A stretch of DNA of 64,000 bases from Prochlorococcus sp. AG-347-L20 (lineage in GTDB: Bacteria > Cyanobacteriota > Cyanobacteriia > PCC-6307 > Cyanobiaceae), in the NCBI GenBank assembly GCA_003281225.1, contig QCCP01000002.1:62001-126000 (forward strand). The letters are read 5' to 3'. Position 1 is the first letter of the stretch. Each line of letters begins with the position of its first letter. Shown here one piece after another: positions 30,683-34,889 of the stretch. The translations under genes were made by a program, and so were the position numbers. The notes below the pieces were generated by a model, which saw only the letters and a list, made by a program, of their open reading frames with translations, ran no database searches and was not told the origin of the DNA.

Positions 30683-30733
30683 AAAAATGAGTTAAAGTTA
30701 GGTAACTGGATTTTTGGTTAAGTTCTTCTTTAT

Positions 30734-30928
30734 GTGCTCTGATCTGACTTTCTTTCGACGTGAGGAGACTGTCGTGATGCGGTAGTAAACCGATCTTGTA
30801 ATCGGAAACGAAAGCCCACTTTGAATCCTCTTCTGGCTTTTCCAGGTCGATGCAACAGAGAGCTGACGGGGATCCGGTTAACCTTTCAAAAGCTTGTTAT
30901 TGCAACAGTTTTTGAAAGGTCTTTTTTT
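30734..30928 (+). ncRNA. ssrS: 6S RNA (ssrS-like), including terminator
   Basis: Position downstream of purK matches cyanobacterial 6S RNA. The 5' GCTCTG (30736-30741) can pair with CAGAGAGC (30856-30863), and GAGGA pairs with TCCTC further in, giving the closed rod with a central bubble. A strong terminator follows: ACCTTTCAAAA (30881-30891) with TTTTGAAAGGT (30910-30920) and seven T. 6S RNA binds the sigma-loaded polymerase. Ends are approximate and no covariance model was run. Confidence 0.7.
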
Positions 30929-31815: not shown

Positions 31816-31882
31816 TCATGTATTTAATTTGATGAGTTAAATAATTTGTTTACCAAAATACTTGACGATCCATTTCTAATGT

Positions 31883-31909
31883 ATTTATATTAATAGTACA
31901 CATGTATTA
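31883..31909 (+). promoter_or_regulatory. Promoter segment shared by the DUF1651 genes, copy 1
   Basis: ATTTATATTAATAGTACA followed by CATGTATTA; 26 of 27 bases match 34331-34357 upstream of the second DUF1651 gene. It contains a TATATT-like -10. Located 8 bases before the DUF1651 ATG. Confidence 0.55.
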
Positions 31910-31916
31910 CTAAGTA

Positions 31917-32216
31917 ATGACTTTAGGAGGAGCTAATGTTTGGACTAATTTTTCTTACGGTTATCGTAATGAGTCCCCAAGTGGTTGGTTGCTTAGCCCA
32001 GATCGCAACAGATTAATTTTATTTATAAGGAATAAAAAATCTCCAAGAAATAGTATGAGAATTTTTGCTCATACATATTATGCAAATGATCTTGGTGAGC
32101 CAATGGCAATTAAATCATCCACTCAAATGTATTTGGATAATGCTTGGGATAAATGGCATGACCTTCAATTAGAAGGTTGGACTTTTGAAGAAATTGAATT
32201 ACCTGAATCTGTATGA
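31917..32216 (+). CDS. DUF1651 protein, 99 aa
   Basis: The family hallmark SPSGWLLSPDRNRLILF lies near residue 24; the end has LQLEGWTFEE. DUF1651 is a picocyanobacterial family of unknown function. The ATG at 31917 has no ribosome site; an AGGAGG at 31925 instead serves an ATG in another frame at 31936. The stop overlaps the next gene (ATGA). It is the first of three overlapping small genes. Confidence 0.7.
   Translation: MTLGGANVWTNFSYGYRNESPSGWLLSPDRNRLILFIRNKKSPRNSMRIFAHTYYANDLGEPMAIKSSTQMYLDNAWDKWHDLQLEGWTFEEIELPESV
31936..32016 (+). CDS. Candidate 26-aa hydrophobic mini-protein overlapping DUF1651
   Basis: Begins 6 bases after AGGAG and lies wholly inside the DUF1651 gene in the +1 frame. 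MFGLIF, a hydrophobic core, then PQVVGCL and a short tail. A paralogue of equal length at 34382-34462 keeps MFGL, F, PQ and GCL with only conservative changes between. VVGC resembles a lipobox. It may be a leader peptide, a tiny membrane peptide or an accident of the overlap. Confidence 0.45.
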   Translation: MFGLIFLTVIVMSPQVVGCLAQIATD

Positions 32217-32353
32217 CTAACTTAAATCCAATCAAAAAGAAACTATCAAAAGTAGATAGAAAGATATCTATGCAAGACCCATCAAAGTTATTAGCAGAAT
32301 TTTTTAATGGTGTTGTCATTGAACTTGATGAAGAATATAAATATGACTCATAA
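32213..32353 (+). CDS. Hypothetical protein, 46 aa
   Basis: Not recognised. Basic N-terminal half (NPIKKKLSKVDRKISM) and acidic end (IELDEEYKYDS). Its ATG overlaps the DUF1651 stop and its end overlaps the next gene by 11 bp, so translation is likely coupled. Confidence 0.55.
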   Translation: MTNLNPIKKKLSKVDRKISMQDPSKLLAEFFNGVVIELDEEYKYDS

Positions 32354-32495
32354 AGAATTGATAGATCAAGTTTCTGCAAATTTATTTAAACAAAGTGGAA
32401 AGTTAGAAAGCAGAAGATCTTGGTTGGCAATGAGAAATTATCTTGAACAATTAGATACCGAACAACTTAAATCCATGCTTAAAGACCACGGATGA
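32343..32495 (+). CDS. Hypothetical protein, 50 aa
   Basis: Not recognised. Helical: THKELIDQVSANLFKQ then WLAMRNYLEQLDTEQLKSML, which could form a helical hairpin. The ATG at 32343 lies in the previous gene; an alternative in-frame ATG is at 32328. Last gene of the DUF1651 operon. Confidence 0.6.
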   Translation: MTHKELIDQVSANLFKQSGKLESRRSWLAMRNYLEQLDTEQLKSMLKDHG

Positions 32496-32505
32496 TTTGA
32501 CAACT

Positions 32506-32619
32506 TTATTTAGTTTTTATTTTTTTCTTAATTCTCAGAAAACCGTAAGTTGCAAAGCCAACCAAAAACATATCCAAGTAAATATGCCAAGTAGGGAAAA
32601 TCTGGTGTATTAATTCCAT
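32506..32619 (-). CDS. Single-span mini-protein, 37 aa
   Basis: Starts on the last base of the ligase-like gene stop (TAATG). ELIHQIFPTWHIYLD precedes one weak membrane span (MFLVGFATYGFL) and a basic tail RIKKKIKTK. Not recognised; the overlap supports translation. Confidence 0.5.
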   Translation of the reverse strand: MELIHQIFPTWHIYLDMFLVGFATYGFLRIKKKIKTK

Positions 32620-33368
32620 TATCGTTTTATTGCCACTTGCCAATAAGGATAATCTAAATTTGATTTTTCTCTAATCAATTGTAATTTTCTAGAATTTATT
32701 TTTACTACTATTCCATCTGTTGGATATTTACTAAAAAGCTTCCCTTCTAGCCATTGTTTTTTAAATAATTCAACTTGGCTAGTAAAGTTGCATGAAATAT
32801 CCTGAGGGATCGTGAAGCCAAGATTTGAAAGACTCTTTTTGGACTCATATTGGTTAAGTGTTGAATTAAGTATTTGAAATGCGCAGAAGCTAAGACTTTC
32901 AGAAAATCCTTCTTTAGCTCTTAGAAATCCAGAAGCGATTCTCTGGGAGATATTTGGACTTTGGTTGGGTGCATATAATTCACCTCTAACTTGAAGAACC
33001 CCTCGTAAAGGGAGATTATTGGGAATGTCTTGGACTTTAATAAGTTTACTAGTAACGTCTGCTCCTTTTCTTGAAATTGCTTTCTCCAAGGTTCCATCCC
33101 TATATTGCAAAGCAACGGCACAACCATCAATTTTTGGTTCAATTAATAATCTGGTATCTACTAATAATCCTTTCAAAAATTCATCTATTGAATCCTTTTC
33201 TAATGAAGGTAAAACTAGTTTATTTTTCTTTTTAAAGTAATCACAATTAGGGTTTGTTCTTAATAAATTTTTTTCAAGTTGGTCGAACTGCAGATCAGAG
33301 ATTAAAGCATTACCATTTCTATAATTATCGTCATACCATTCAATTCGTTCTTCTAAATAAGTCTTCAT
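32619..33368 (-). CDS. Stand-alone NAD-dependent DNA ligase adenylation domain
   Basis: 249 aa. Catalytic KxDG motif IEPKIDGCAVALQYRDG near residue 79, RGELY near 125, TDGIVVKINS near 218, and a final motif V-like QVAIKR. A short Ia-like N-terminus (YDDNYRNGNALISDLQFDQL) is present, but the OB-fold, zinc finger, HhH and BRCT domains of full LigA (~670 aa) are absent. It may adenylate a substrate but is not expected to seal nicks alone. It overlaps the next mini-gene by one base. Confidence 0.82.
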   Translation of the reverse strand: MKTYLEERIEWYDDNYRNGNALISDLQFDQLEKNLLRTNPNCDYFKKKNKLVLPSLEKDSIDEFLKGLLVDTRLLIEPKIDGCAVALQYRDGTLEKAISRKGADVTSKLIKVQDIPNNLPLRGVLQVRGELYAPNQSPNISQRIASGFLRAKEGFSESLSFCAFQILNSTLNQYESKKSLSNLGFTIPQDISCNFTSQVELFKKQWLEGKLFSKYPTDGIVVKINSRKLQLIREKSNLDYPYWQVAIKR

Positions 33369-33575
33369 TTAATACGATGGCTTAAGTTTTTGGCTAGGCA
33401 TCCAACTTGGTTTATCTATAATCCATTTTTCTCTATCTTCATATTTAACAGTCCATAAAAGAAATGAAGAAATTTCTTTTAGCGTTATTCCAACCAAATA
33501 TCTTGTTTTTGGACTTATTGATATAAATCCAAATAATAATATTAATAAAATAAGTTTAAACATACCTTTAATCAT
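33369..33575 (-). CDS. Small membrane protein, 68 aa
   Basis: A hydrophobic N-terminus (KGMFKLILLILLFGFISIS) forms one span, then SFLLWTVKYEDREKWI and a Pro-rich end. Not recognised. It abuts the ligase-like gene (adjacent bases), so both are in one transcript. Confidence 0.6.
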   Translation of the reverse strand: MIKGMFKLILLILLFGFISISPKTRYLVGITLKEISSFLLWTVKYEDREKWIIDKPSWMPSQKLKPSY

Positions 33576-33606
33576 TTAAAAACTCAGCATAATTTTTGCG
33601 AACTTT

Positions 33607-33864
33607 TTAACTAATGCAATTCTTATAACCTTCAATCTTTGCTAGTTCATCAATATTTAAACCTGTTTCTTCTAGTAAAGTTTCTCCTATATCGTCCTTA
33701 TTAAATTTAGTTAAAGCTCCTTCAGTAGAGTACTTAATACATTGGTTTTTGTATTTTGCTTCTTTGATAACAGGAGATAAATAAAAACCAAACAAGATGA
33801 TGAAAGCTCCATATGTTACAACTTTTCTATGGTTTTTCCACCATTCATAAAATTTATTGGACAC
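33607..33864 (-). CDS. Membrane-anchored small protein with two Cys, 85 aa
   Basis: GTG start. One span (VVTYGAFIILFGFYLS), then SPVIKEAKYKNQC and a C-terminal KNCIS. The PVIK-x-AK motif after the membrane helix and the two spaced Cys recur in the protein at 62147-62584, so the two are likely distant paralogues. A disulfide between the Cys is possible. Confidence 0.6.
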   Translation of the reverse strand: MSNKFYEWWKNHRKVVTYGAFIILFGFYLSPVIKEAKYKNQCIKYSTEGALTKFNKDDIGETLLEETGLNIDELAKIEGYKNCIS

Positions 33865-33886
33865 GAAAAATAAATGACTATTTTCT

Positions 33887-33905
33887 ATTTTAAATTGACT
33901 GTCAA
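33887..33905 (-). promoter_or_regulatory. Shared upstream motif TTGACAGTC-N4-TAAAAT, copy 2
   Basis: Minus strand: TTGACAGTC (33897-33905), AATT, TAAAAT (33887-33892), 22 bases before the GTG of 33607-33864. Same order and spacing as copy 1 at 31797-31815. Confidence 0.4.
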
Positions 33906-33933
33906 CAAATTACTTTAGAAATTTAAGTATTGC

Positions 33934-34242
33934 TTAATTTATTGTTTTTTCATTAATAGATTTAACCCAAGAATAATATCTTGATTTTCTAATCCTTTGC
34001 TCTTTCGAGACTAATCTATCCGCAGATTCTAGGGGTGATTCTCCTTTCTCAACTTTTGTTGTAATAGAAATACCAAAACCCTTTGCTTCAATTTTTGCAA
34101 TGCCACCCTCTAAAAAAAATAAAAAAGACCAACCTTTGTTCCATCCTAAATAGAAGGGATTTCGATACATTGCATTCTTTTGGAGATACTCTTTAAATGA
34201 TATTTTCCTTTTCAAGGAGTTACTTGTATTCACTATTACCAA
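33934..34242 (-). CDS. Hypothetical protein, ~102 aa
   Basis: Not recognised. Soluble: KISFKEYLQKNAMYRNP, FFLEGGIAKIEAKGFGIS, and a basic C-terminal helix. Start is a TTG (34242) or GTG (34233). No clear family signs. Confidence 0.5.
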   Translation of the reverse strand: MVIVNTSNSLKRKISFKEYLQKNAMYRNPFYLGWNKGWSFLFFLEGGIAKIEAKGFGISITTKVEKGESPLESADRLVSKEQRIRKSRYYSWVKSINEKTIN

Positions 34243-34330
34243 ATGAGAAGTTTACGGCTGATTATTTCTGGAAAGTGATTTTAGTATTTAAATAATTACT
34301 AGAGGAATACTTGACTCCTACGAGTAGTAC

Positions 34331-34357
34331 ATTTATATTAATAGTACAAATGTATTA
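34331..34357 (+). promoter_or_regulatory. Promoter segment shared by the DUF1651 genes, copy 2
   Basis: ATTTATATTAATAGTACA then AATGTATTA, differing by one base from 31883-31909. It lies 6 bases before the DUF1651 ATG at 34363, almost the same distance as copy 1. Confidence 0.55.
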
Positions 34358-34362
34358 TTTTC

Positions 34363-34653
34363 ATGACTTCAGGAGTCGCTAATGTTCGGACTTGTTTTTA
34401 TCGTGGCAGCCTTATTGACCCCCCAACTGGCTGGTTGTTTAACAAAAAAAGTGGTTTATTAATTTTTTTTGAGAGTTATAAGAAATCTGTATCTAATAAC
34501 TTAAAAGTATATACTCATCTTTTCTATGCAAATGAATTAGGTGAACCAGCCCAAATTAAAAATTCAAGACTTCATTCTATTGAGTGTGCTTGTGAAACAT
34601 GGAATGAATTAATTGCAGGAGGTTGGCAAATTGTTACTAATAAATTCCAGTAA
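34363..34653 (+). CDS. DUF1651 protein, 96 aa
   Basis: Paralogue of 31917-32216: PPTGWLFNKKSGLLIFF, then YANELGEPAQIK (YANDLGEPMAIK in the first), and AGGWQIV at the end. No ribosome site before its ATG; AGGAG at 34371 serves the overlapping mini-ORF. Followed 3 bp later by a Cys-rich small gene. Confidence 0.7.
   Translation: MTSGVANVRTCFYRGSLIDPPTGWLFNKKSGLLIFFESYKKSVSNNLKVYTHLFYANELGEPAQIKNSRLHSIECACETWNELIAGGWQIVTNKFQ
34382..34462 (+). CDS. Candidate 26-aa hydrophobic mini-protein overlapping DUF1651, copy 2
   Basis: Same layout and length as 31936-32016: ATG 6 bases after AGGAG, MFGLVF, hydrophobic core, PQLAGCL and a basic tail. LAGC is a good lipobox. Codon differences between copies are mostly synonymous or conservative in this frame but not in the DUF1651 frame, which supports translation. 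Confidence 0.45.
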   Translation: MFGLVFIVAALLTPQLAGCLTKKVVY

Positions 34654-34655
34654 TC

Positions 34656-34889
34656 ATGATCAAGGTAAATCCGTCAAAATGGGAATATCTAAAAGAATCA
34701 ACCCTAAAACGAAAACGAACAAAGATTTGTATTACTTGCAATCACTTTCGCTACAGCACTACAGAAACTTTTGCTACTGTATTGATCTGTCCAAAATACG
34801 AAAAACGTATACCACAGGGTGATCATTTACTTAAAGGTTGTGAGTATTGGCAAAAAAATAGGACGATATTTTCTCCTGAAGCATCTTAA
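34656..34889 (+). CDS. Four-cysteine small protein, 77 aa
   Basis: KICITCNHFRYS holds a CxxC, followed by LICPKYEKR and LLKGCEYWQ: four Cys that could bind zinc or an Fe-S cluster. Family not recognised. It starts 3 bp after the DUF1651 stop, so likely the same transcript. Confidence 0.6.
   Translation: MIKVNPSKWEYLKESTLKRKRTKICITCNHFRYSTTETFATVLICPKYEKRIPQGDHLLKGCEYWQKNRTIFSPEAS

Follow-up and report, generated by a model that had tools for sequence, protein, structure and literature searches.

The window analysed in this study is a stretch of 64,000 nucleotides from Prochlorococcus sp. AG-347-L20 (contig QCCP01000002.1, positions 62,001 to 126,000), and it contains two genes of the DUF1651 family, gene A (31917..32216, + strand, 99 aa) and gene B (34363..34653, + strand, 96 aa), with a spacing of 2.4 kb. 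Both match PF07864 above its gathering score (42.3 and 50.1 bits against 22; Pfam). A small open reading frame (mini-ORF) is nested in the 5' part of each gene, in the +1 frame of its host: mini-ORF A, MFGLIFLTVIVMSPQVVGCLAQIATD, at 31936..32016 (+) and mini-ORF B, MFGLVFIVAALLTPQLAGCLTKKVVY, at 34382..34462 (+). Both have 26 codons plus a stop and lie completely inside the host gene, and in both the mini ATG is located 19 nt 3' of the DUF1651 ATG. Shine-Dalgarno (SD) motifs precede them, AGGAGG at 31925..31930 (+) in A and AGGAG at 34371..34375 (+) in B, with anti-SD duplexes of −10.2 and −6.9 kcal/mol, against 0.1 and 0.8 kcal/mol at the DUF1651 starts, which are without SD. These coordinates and energies confirm two statements of the original prediction, which was made from the letters of the window: that ATG codons at 31936 and 34382 open 26-codon frames behind AGGAG, and that the DUF1651 ATG has no ribosome site. 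The encoded peptides begin with about 12 hydrophobic residues followed by a short tail, which is cationic in B and in the B-like group B2. In B and B2, substitutions in natural copies clearly point to purifying selection that acts in the mini frame, and the functional interpretation given earlier is partly supported, strongly for B/B2 and weakly for A.

Homologues of gene A were searched in 200 genomes of the same genus, 183 of which match some DUF1651 paralogue at 1e-8, and homologues of gene B in 151 same-genus genomes (137 match at 1e-15). A search with A across the family covered 300 genomes, with 73 matching at 1e-6. The kept set comprises 205 unique sequences (of 242), namely 136 A, 36 B, 21 B2 (54–66% identical to B) and 12 of the 13 C-type loci analysed (L237-L249), the paralogue C serving as internal control. 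Sequences were kept if the tblastn match started at query residue 3 or earlier, reached at least 60 bits, lay away from the locus ends and contained no N; copies whose DUF1651 N-terminus differs, such as L007, L209 and L246, are thereby excluded. A further B set of 40 loci was picked by hand after the first result was known, and 36 of them were usable; the drops were L295, L296 and L303, with a short DUF1651 ORF, and L304, an A copy. Parsimony on FastTree trees gave the numbers of changes, and the Fisher, binomial and Poisson values given below assume independent changes.

The mini ATG is kept in 132 of 136 A sequences (3 ACG, 1 GTG), in all 36 B, all 36 further B and all 21 B2 sequences, and in 10 of 12 C. 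The length of 26 codons is kept in 133 of 136 A (three stop at codon 19), 35 of 36 B (one has 25), 21 of 21 B2 and 10 of 12 C. Variants that speak against the mini-ORF, with its start lost or its frame cut short and DUF1651 intact, are therefore found in A (3 of 136 with ACG and 3 of 136 with the stop at codon 19), while the mini ATG is never lost in B or B2. The DUF1651 ATG is kept in 135/136 A, 35/36 B, 20/21 B2 and 12/12 C. Paralogue C has a DUF1651 N-terminus similar in kind, yet the SD or the mini start has decayed in several copies. In the peptide of B, K22 is present in 72 of 72 sequences and the conserved residues reach the C-terminus.

As a null model, the DUF1651 protein was fixed and synonymous codons were redrawn. 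An ATG, an SD-like motif and 26 open codons then occur together in 45% of the draws for A, which makes one A sequence taken singly nothing unusual, and in 3.3% for B. The equal length of the two mini-ORFs, which the original prediction had pointed out, is real but not independent evidence, because the Leu-Ile codons of DUF1651 supply the mini stop and the host frame partly forces 26 codons. Where DUF1651 codon 26 is Leu, an open mini frame requires CTT or CTC; these codons are used in 133/136 A, 21/21 B2 and 12/12 C, and further along these genes they make up about 41% (A), 58% (B2) and 23% (C) of the Leu codons; the sequences are related, and the control C behaves likewise.

DUF1651 codon positions 1, 2 and 3 correspond to mini positions 3, 1 and 2. 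In a normal gene the third codon positions are the most variable, and outside the overlap this is the case in every group. In codons 7–26 of B and B2 together (57 sequences), changes at DUF1651 positions 1/2/3 number 48/19/26, compared with 96/74/225 in the rest of the gene (Fisher 3.2e-8); in this overlap first positions change more often than third (binomial 0.007) and second ones (0.00026). The counts are 21/7/7 against 36/24/61 for B alone and 23/9/17 against 51/43/141 for B2 alone, where the difference between first and third positions is not significant (0.215). The further 36 B sequences have 28/12/4 in codons 7–26, and 36/19/16 in codons 7–32 compared with 66/40/91 in the rest (Fisher 0.00055). 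In codons 18–32 the mini-frame signal gives a Fisher value of 0.0006 in B2 and 0.18, not significant, in the first 36 B. When 20-codon windows are moved along the gene and ranked by p1/(p1+p3), codons 7–26 rank 2nd of 76 in all 72 B, 1st of 76 in the further B and 1st of 78 in B2, but 45th of 79 in A and 48th of 76 in C. Before the overlap, in B codons 2–6, third positions are the most variable (13/10/31).

The NS/NN ratio, which measures an excess of changes that are nonsynonymous for DUF1651 and synonymous for the mini-ORF, agrees with these counts. For B and B2 together it is 52/39 in the overlap and 58/131 in the rest (odds ratio (OR) 3.0, p 2.1e-5), for all B the OR is 2.5 (p 0.00081), and for the further B it is 2.3 (35/24 vs 42/65, p 0.01); the control C has no excess (OR 1.2, p 0.39). 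Synonymous changes in codons 7–18 are also reduced, with 4 observed for 11.7 expected in B and 5 for 23.0 in B2, compared with 19 for 25.8 in C, so that C has neither mini-frame periodicity nor synonymous suppression. Judged from these comparisons, the conservation goes beyond chance in B/B2, and in A only over mini codons 1–12. We consider it quite probable that the mini-ORF of B/B2 is translated and selected as a peptide.

Several B and B2 copies have an altered host gene. L295 has ATT at the DUF1651 start and an internal stop after 35 codons, and in L303 the ATG is changed to TTG, a possible start, with a stop after 54 codons; in both, the upstream LexA/SOS box (described below), the SD and the mini-ORF are intact. 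The DUF1651 start is ATA in L178 (B) and ACG in L234 (B2), again with an intact mini-ORF. Such copies were not part of the original prediction. Because the peptide is constrained and the mini-ORF survives where DUF1651 is broken, the product in B/B2 would be a functional peptide, one of the options named there, rather than a decoy.

The original prediction had placed mini-frame constraint in both copies and proposed an alignment of many DUF1651 loci with a frame-specific test over the overlap. The test agrees for B/B2 and disagrees for A, where NS/NN has an OR of 0.84 (p 0.75). The changes of A track the DUF1651 frame (19/7/48 in codons 7–26), while synonymous changes in codons 7–18 are strongly reduced (13 observed, 43.7 expected, P 5e-8). 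Thus the mini start and the first 12 mini codons of A (MFGLIFLTVIVM), or the nucleotides themselves, are protected according to the pattern of changes. RNA folding does not explain this constraint, since the fold over the overlap is not more stable than that of shuffled sequences (z +0.47 and +0.82). Whether mini-ORF A is translated and selected as a peptide is close to evenly balanced, and we lean slightly towards the negative.

Upstream of both genes we found a feature absent from the earlier account. A LexA/SOS box, AGTACACATGTATT, is located at 31895..31908 before A, just 3' of a sigma-70-like promoter (TTGACG-18-TATATT, 31862..31891, +; 10/12 matches) whose transcription start would be near 31898. 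Before B, the box AGTACAAATGTATT at 34343..34356 follows a sigma-70-like promoter at 34311..34339 (+; TTGACT-17-TATATT, 10/12 matches), and a second, weaker LexA-like box, AGTACATTTATATT, overlaps the −10 element at 34326..34339 (34323-34340 agrees with the A/B box except for 3 mismatches). Promoter-like sites number 2 in the A stretch and 2 in the B stretch, with 2.7 and 2.4 expected, and are weak evidence alone. At least 9 of 10 half-site bases of the box are found in 199 of 205 upstream stretches, compared with 7 of 10250 shuffled ones; 9/10 half-site bases are found in 135/136 A, 36/36 B and 35/36 further B sequences. A similar type of box precedes recA (L256) and lexA (L262) of the same genome, whose products were confirmed by Pfam, and the published cyanobacterial LexA consensus is AGTACWNWTGTACT (PMC3091678; here and below, papers are cited for the portions covered). 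The pattern AGTACNNNTGTWYT has 11 matches in the genome and 3 for the reversed control. Three matches (L257, L258, L259) among 8 inspected regions sit within genes, so the pattern alone is not proof. A predicted LexA-type operator thus stands at the promoters of A and B, and both genes are apparently under SOS control. Mitomycin C raises recA, lexA and umuC in two marine Synechococcus strains (PMC3744912); DUF1651 is not named in the portions of that paper covered. Further LexA-like boxes of the same genome lie beside uncharacterised small ORFs, near position 1496 of L260, where two boxes seem to be in tandem, and near 1537 of L261.

Taken together, we somewhat favour the reading that the 5' end of DUF1651 carries a nested, LexA-controlled gene for a small hydrophobic peptide. 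The box, the SD, the ORF and the mini-frame selection in B/B2 can be read from the sequences themselves; translation, membrane insertion, LexA binding and induction at this promoter, and a physiological effect are what we infer from them. One LexA-repressed promoter would give a single mRNA with a short leader. Ribosomes would translate DUF1651 from the first ATG without an SD, and separate initiation at the strong SD, 19 nt further on, would yield the 26-aa hydrophobic peptide. When DNA damage or phage infection inactivates LexA, both products would increase, and the peptide would most likely insert in the membrane, although its hydrophobic segment of 12 residues (Kyte-Doolittle group means 2.8–2.9 in A, B and B2) is short for a transmembrane span. 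If the mini-ORF is translated, a membrane-acting stress peptide is a reasonably probable product.

A nested same-sense gene in another frame is known from comS within srfA of Bacillus subtilis (PMC12350097). The likeness is one of arrangement. Here the nested ORF occupies the extreme 5' end and begins 19 nt past the host start codon, and host and nested ORF are both preceded by a LexA box and occur in two copies. In its LexA-type operator, size (26 aa here, 27 aa in DinQ) and hydrophobicity, the peptide resembles DinQ of E. coli (PMC3567139), although it is not assigned to the DinQ kind; TisB of E. coli is a further LexA-controlled membrane peptide of similar type. The antisense RNA reported opposite the B2 gene of MED4 (PMC2518516) may be another likeness to the TisB/DinQ type, but here the peptide is encoded inside another protein gene and the antisense RNA rises with the mRNA. 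A bolder version, quite unlikely in our estimate, would make the hidden peptide, not DUF1651, the main effector of B/B2: an SOS- and phage-triggered membrane toxin for growth arrest or phage response, with DUF1651 or the antisense RNA as counterpart. If so, a type I-like stress module would have been unseen inside annotated genes of a very abundant ocean phototroph. Work that knocks out these DUF1651 genes or follows their expression may involve two products simultaneously. Bacterial same-strand overlaps are usually argued from expression alone, whereas the reading-frame test used here draws on natural variation in dozens of copies, with a paralogue as internal control and with host genes that are broken.

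The mini-ORF has a narrow range. The best 80 loci for DUF1651 A in public genomes are 76 from Prochlorococcus and 4 from uncultured Synechococcaceae. A DNA-signature scan of 400 family genomes, allowing up to 3 mismatches, matched 66 of 68 genomes of the same genus, which we take to be the high-light group, and 13 of 332 others, the same as the reversed control (13 of 332). Some same-genus matches (G023, G531) are only chance-like, with 3 mismatches, and among the matches listed the 7 from other genera all have 3 mismatches. An MFGL-type mini-ORF was absent in the 7 other N-termini inspected (6 from other genera and 1 same-genus C-type copy), and a profile search limited to the own genome gave nothing beyond the two window copies. 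Among the matches listed, alignments of DUF1651 from other genera begin at query residue 13–22, and residues 1–15 of DUF1651 B have pLDDT <50, consistent with disorder (AlphaFold2, 45 sequences). The mini-ORF therefore probably starts in a flexible, lineage-specific N-terminal extension of DUF1651, as the alignments and the predicted model suggest. Such an extension would fit overprinting, the direction of origin being presumed. Neither PDB nor viral comparisons of the predicted DUF1651 B fold reached E 0.001 (best values 0.31 and 0.14), and its likeness to the nucleic-acid-binding WGR, PC4 and PUR domains is insignificant (PDB E ≥0.3) and was not used. In a search of viral contigs we found one A homologue (L118) with mini-ORF and box, on an unclassified contig.

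A number of points weigh against the nested-gene reading. The signature stands above its reversed control in one genus only. Kinship links the further 36 B to the first 36, and sequences that share ancestry do not count as independent. The broken copies come from drafts of 40–80 contigs that are 56 and 74% complete, so sequence errors are possible, and in one B copy (L296, genome G123) an insertion in the overlap shifts both frames; this insertion, within a run of C, would join mini-ORF and DUF1651 in one frame, and it may reflect faulty assembly. Outside the overlap, gene B already leans mildly towards NS changes (ratio 0.71, p 0.025), so only overlap-versus-rest tests are fair. Hydrophobicity partly derives from host codons, because the T-rich third positions of DUF1651 serve as middle positions of the mini codons: the whole-peptide null mean is already 0.55 (A) and 0.73 (B), compared with 1.62 and 1.51 observed. 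The fractions of the null reaching the observed hydropathy are 0.001 (A) and 0.004 (B) for residues 1–12 and 0.011 and 0.046 for the whole peptide, and hydrophobicity alone is weak evidence for a functional peptide. Finally, mini-ORF A is without mini-frame periodicity, its second half is unconstrained, and the target of its constraint in codons 7–18 may be the nucleotide sequence and not a peptide.

The points on A are what a passive by-product would leave, the rival that survives best although we regard it as unlikely. It supposes that DUF1651 residues 7–26 are conserved for themselves, and that, where the genome is AT-rich and third positions carry T, the +1 frame comes out open and hydrophobic, with a GGAG before it that Gly codons supply by chance. 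For A, nearly half of the synonymous redraws reproduce the arrangement, the changes follow the DUF1651 frame, and 6 of 136 copies lack the mini start or stop early; the decay of SD or start in C beneath a similar N-terminus fits as well. However, neither DUF1651-frame constraint nor neutrality predicts more first- than third-position changes in B/B2 (48 vs 26, p 0.007), and the synonymous suppression in codons 7–18, seen in A, B and B2 but not in C, and the intact mini-ORFs in broken DUF1651 B genes also speak against it. For B/B2 the by-product is already contradicted.

A cis-regulatory decoy, in which the strong internal start competes or couples with DUF1651 translation and the peptide is inert, would account for a strong SD behind an SD-less start, and for the constraint in A being strongest over the start and the first codons. 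We rate it a little lower than the by-product, since an inert peptide does not explain mini-frame constraint as far as codons 18–32 in B2 and codons 7–32 in B (though in the first 36 B codons 18–32 are not significant), the residues of B conserved to the C-terminus, K22 included, or mini-ORFs kept where DUF1651 is broken.

Two further rivals appear highly improbable. By a frameshift, ribosomes starting at the mini ATG could slip −1 into DUF1651 and make a membrane-anchored fusion. A strong SD is found at the mini start only, a run of five T near mini codons 5–6 is kept in most copies, and the L296 insertion would create such a product; but no obvious tandem slippery heptamer was seen by eye in the mini frame, the DUF1651 ATG is widely kept and B codons 2–6 vary most at third positions, as if this start is used, and the mini frame is constrained beyond any early slip. 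Alternatively, codons 7–18 may be conserved by a nucleotide-level element such as an RNA hairpin, a protein site or an antisense-RNA promoter. The antisense RNA reported opposite PMM0684 (PMC2518516) may agree with this, as do the lack of periodicity in A and a promoter-like match on the minus strand (32045-32016), from which transcription would run antisense through mini-ORF A. Against it, the folds are not unusually stable, the promoter-like matches are not above shuffles and the minus strand at B has none, and codon periodicity as in B/B2 is not a trait of such elements. Two ideas of the original prediction were rejected: a leader peptide, as the mini ATG comes after the DUF1651 ATG and, in B/B2, it is the peptide sequence that is constrained, and a lipoprotein, as Cys19 is replaced by Tyr or Phe in 22 of 136 A and by Tyr in 20 of 21 B2, with no basic residue before it in either window peptide.

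The nested-gene reading can be connected with MED4. In the genome G015, a 6S RNA occupies 652620-652804 and a Cyano-1 RNA 654509-654576; they match yfr7 (652625-652844) and yfr3 (654511-654604) of MED4 (PMC1242208); the B2 gene directly after 6S in G015 is therefore PMM0684 of MED4, with its mini-ORF at 652963-653043. From its position, PMM0819 would be the A copy near 774462. Both are reported as DUF1651 genes whose transcripts increase on infection by phage P-SSP7 (PMC5490813), a status as host-response genes that the LexA box fits, and for PMM0684 the phage induction is accompanied by the rise of the antisense RNA opposite it (PMC2518516). The mini-ORF thus offers a concrete candidate product for these phage-induced 'unknown' genes. 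We found no description of it in the literature on DUF1651, PMM0684/PMM0819 and Prochlorococcus ribosome profiling, nor in that on MED4 start sites and small proteins or, among the papers listed, overlapping ORFs in Prochlorococcus, within the mostly non-subscription papers covered.

As for the surroundings, a 6S RNA gene (30700-30884, +; Rfam RF00013) lies about 1 kb upstream of DUF1651 A in the window, so that A follows 6S here, while in MED4 the B2 copy does. Between A and B, a 249-aa ORF (32619-33368, −) has the adenylation domain of NAD-dependent DNA ligase (PF01653). Directly 3' of A there is a 46-aa ORF (32213-32353, +) with an ATGA overlap with the DUF1651 stop, and directly 3' of B a 77-aa ORF (34656-34889, +) with a CxxC motif; a Pfam search gave no match for either. 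In MED4, look-alikes of both small ORFs, recognised by eye, follow PMM0684 in one row.

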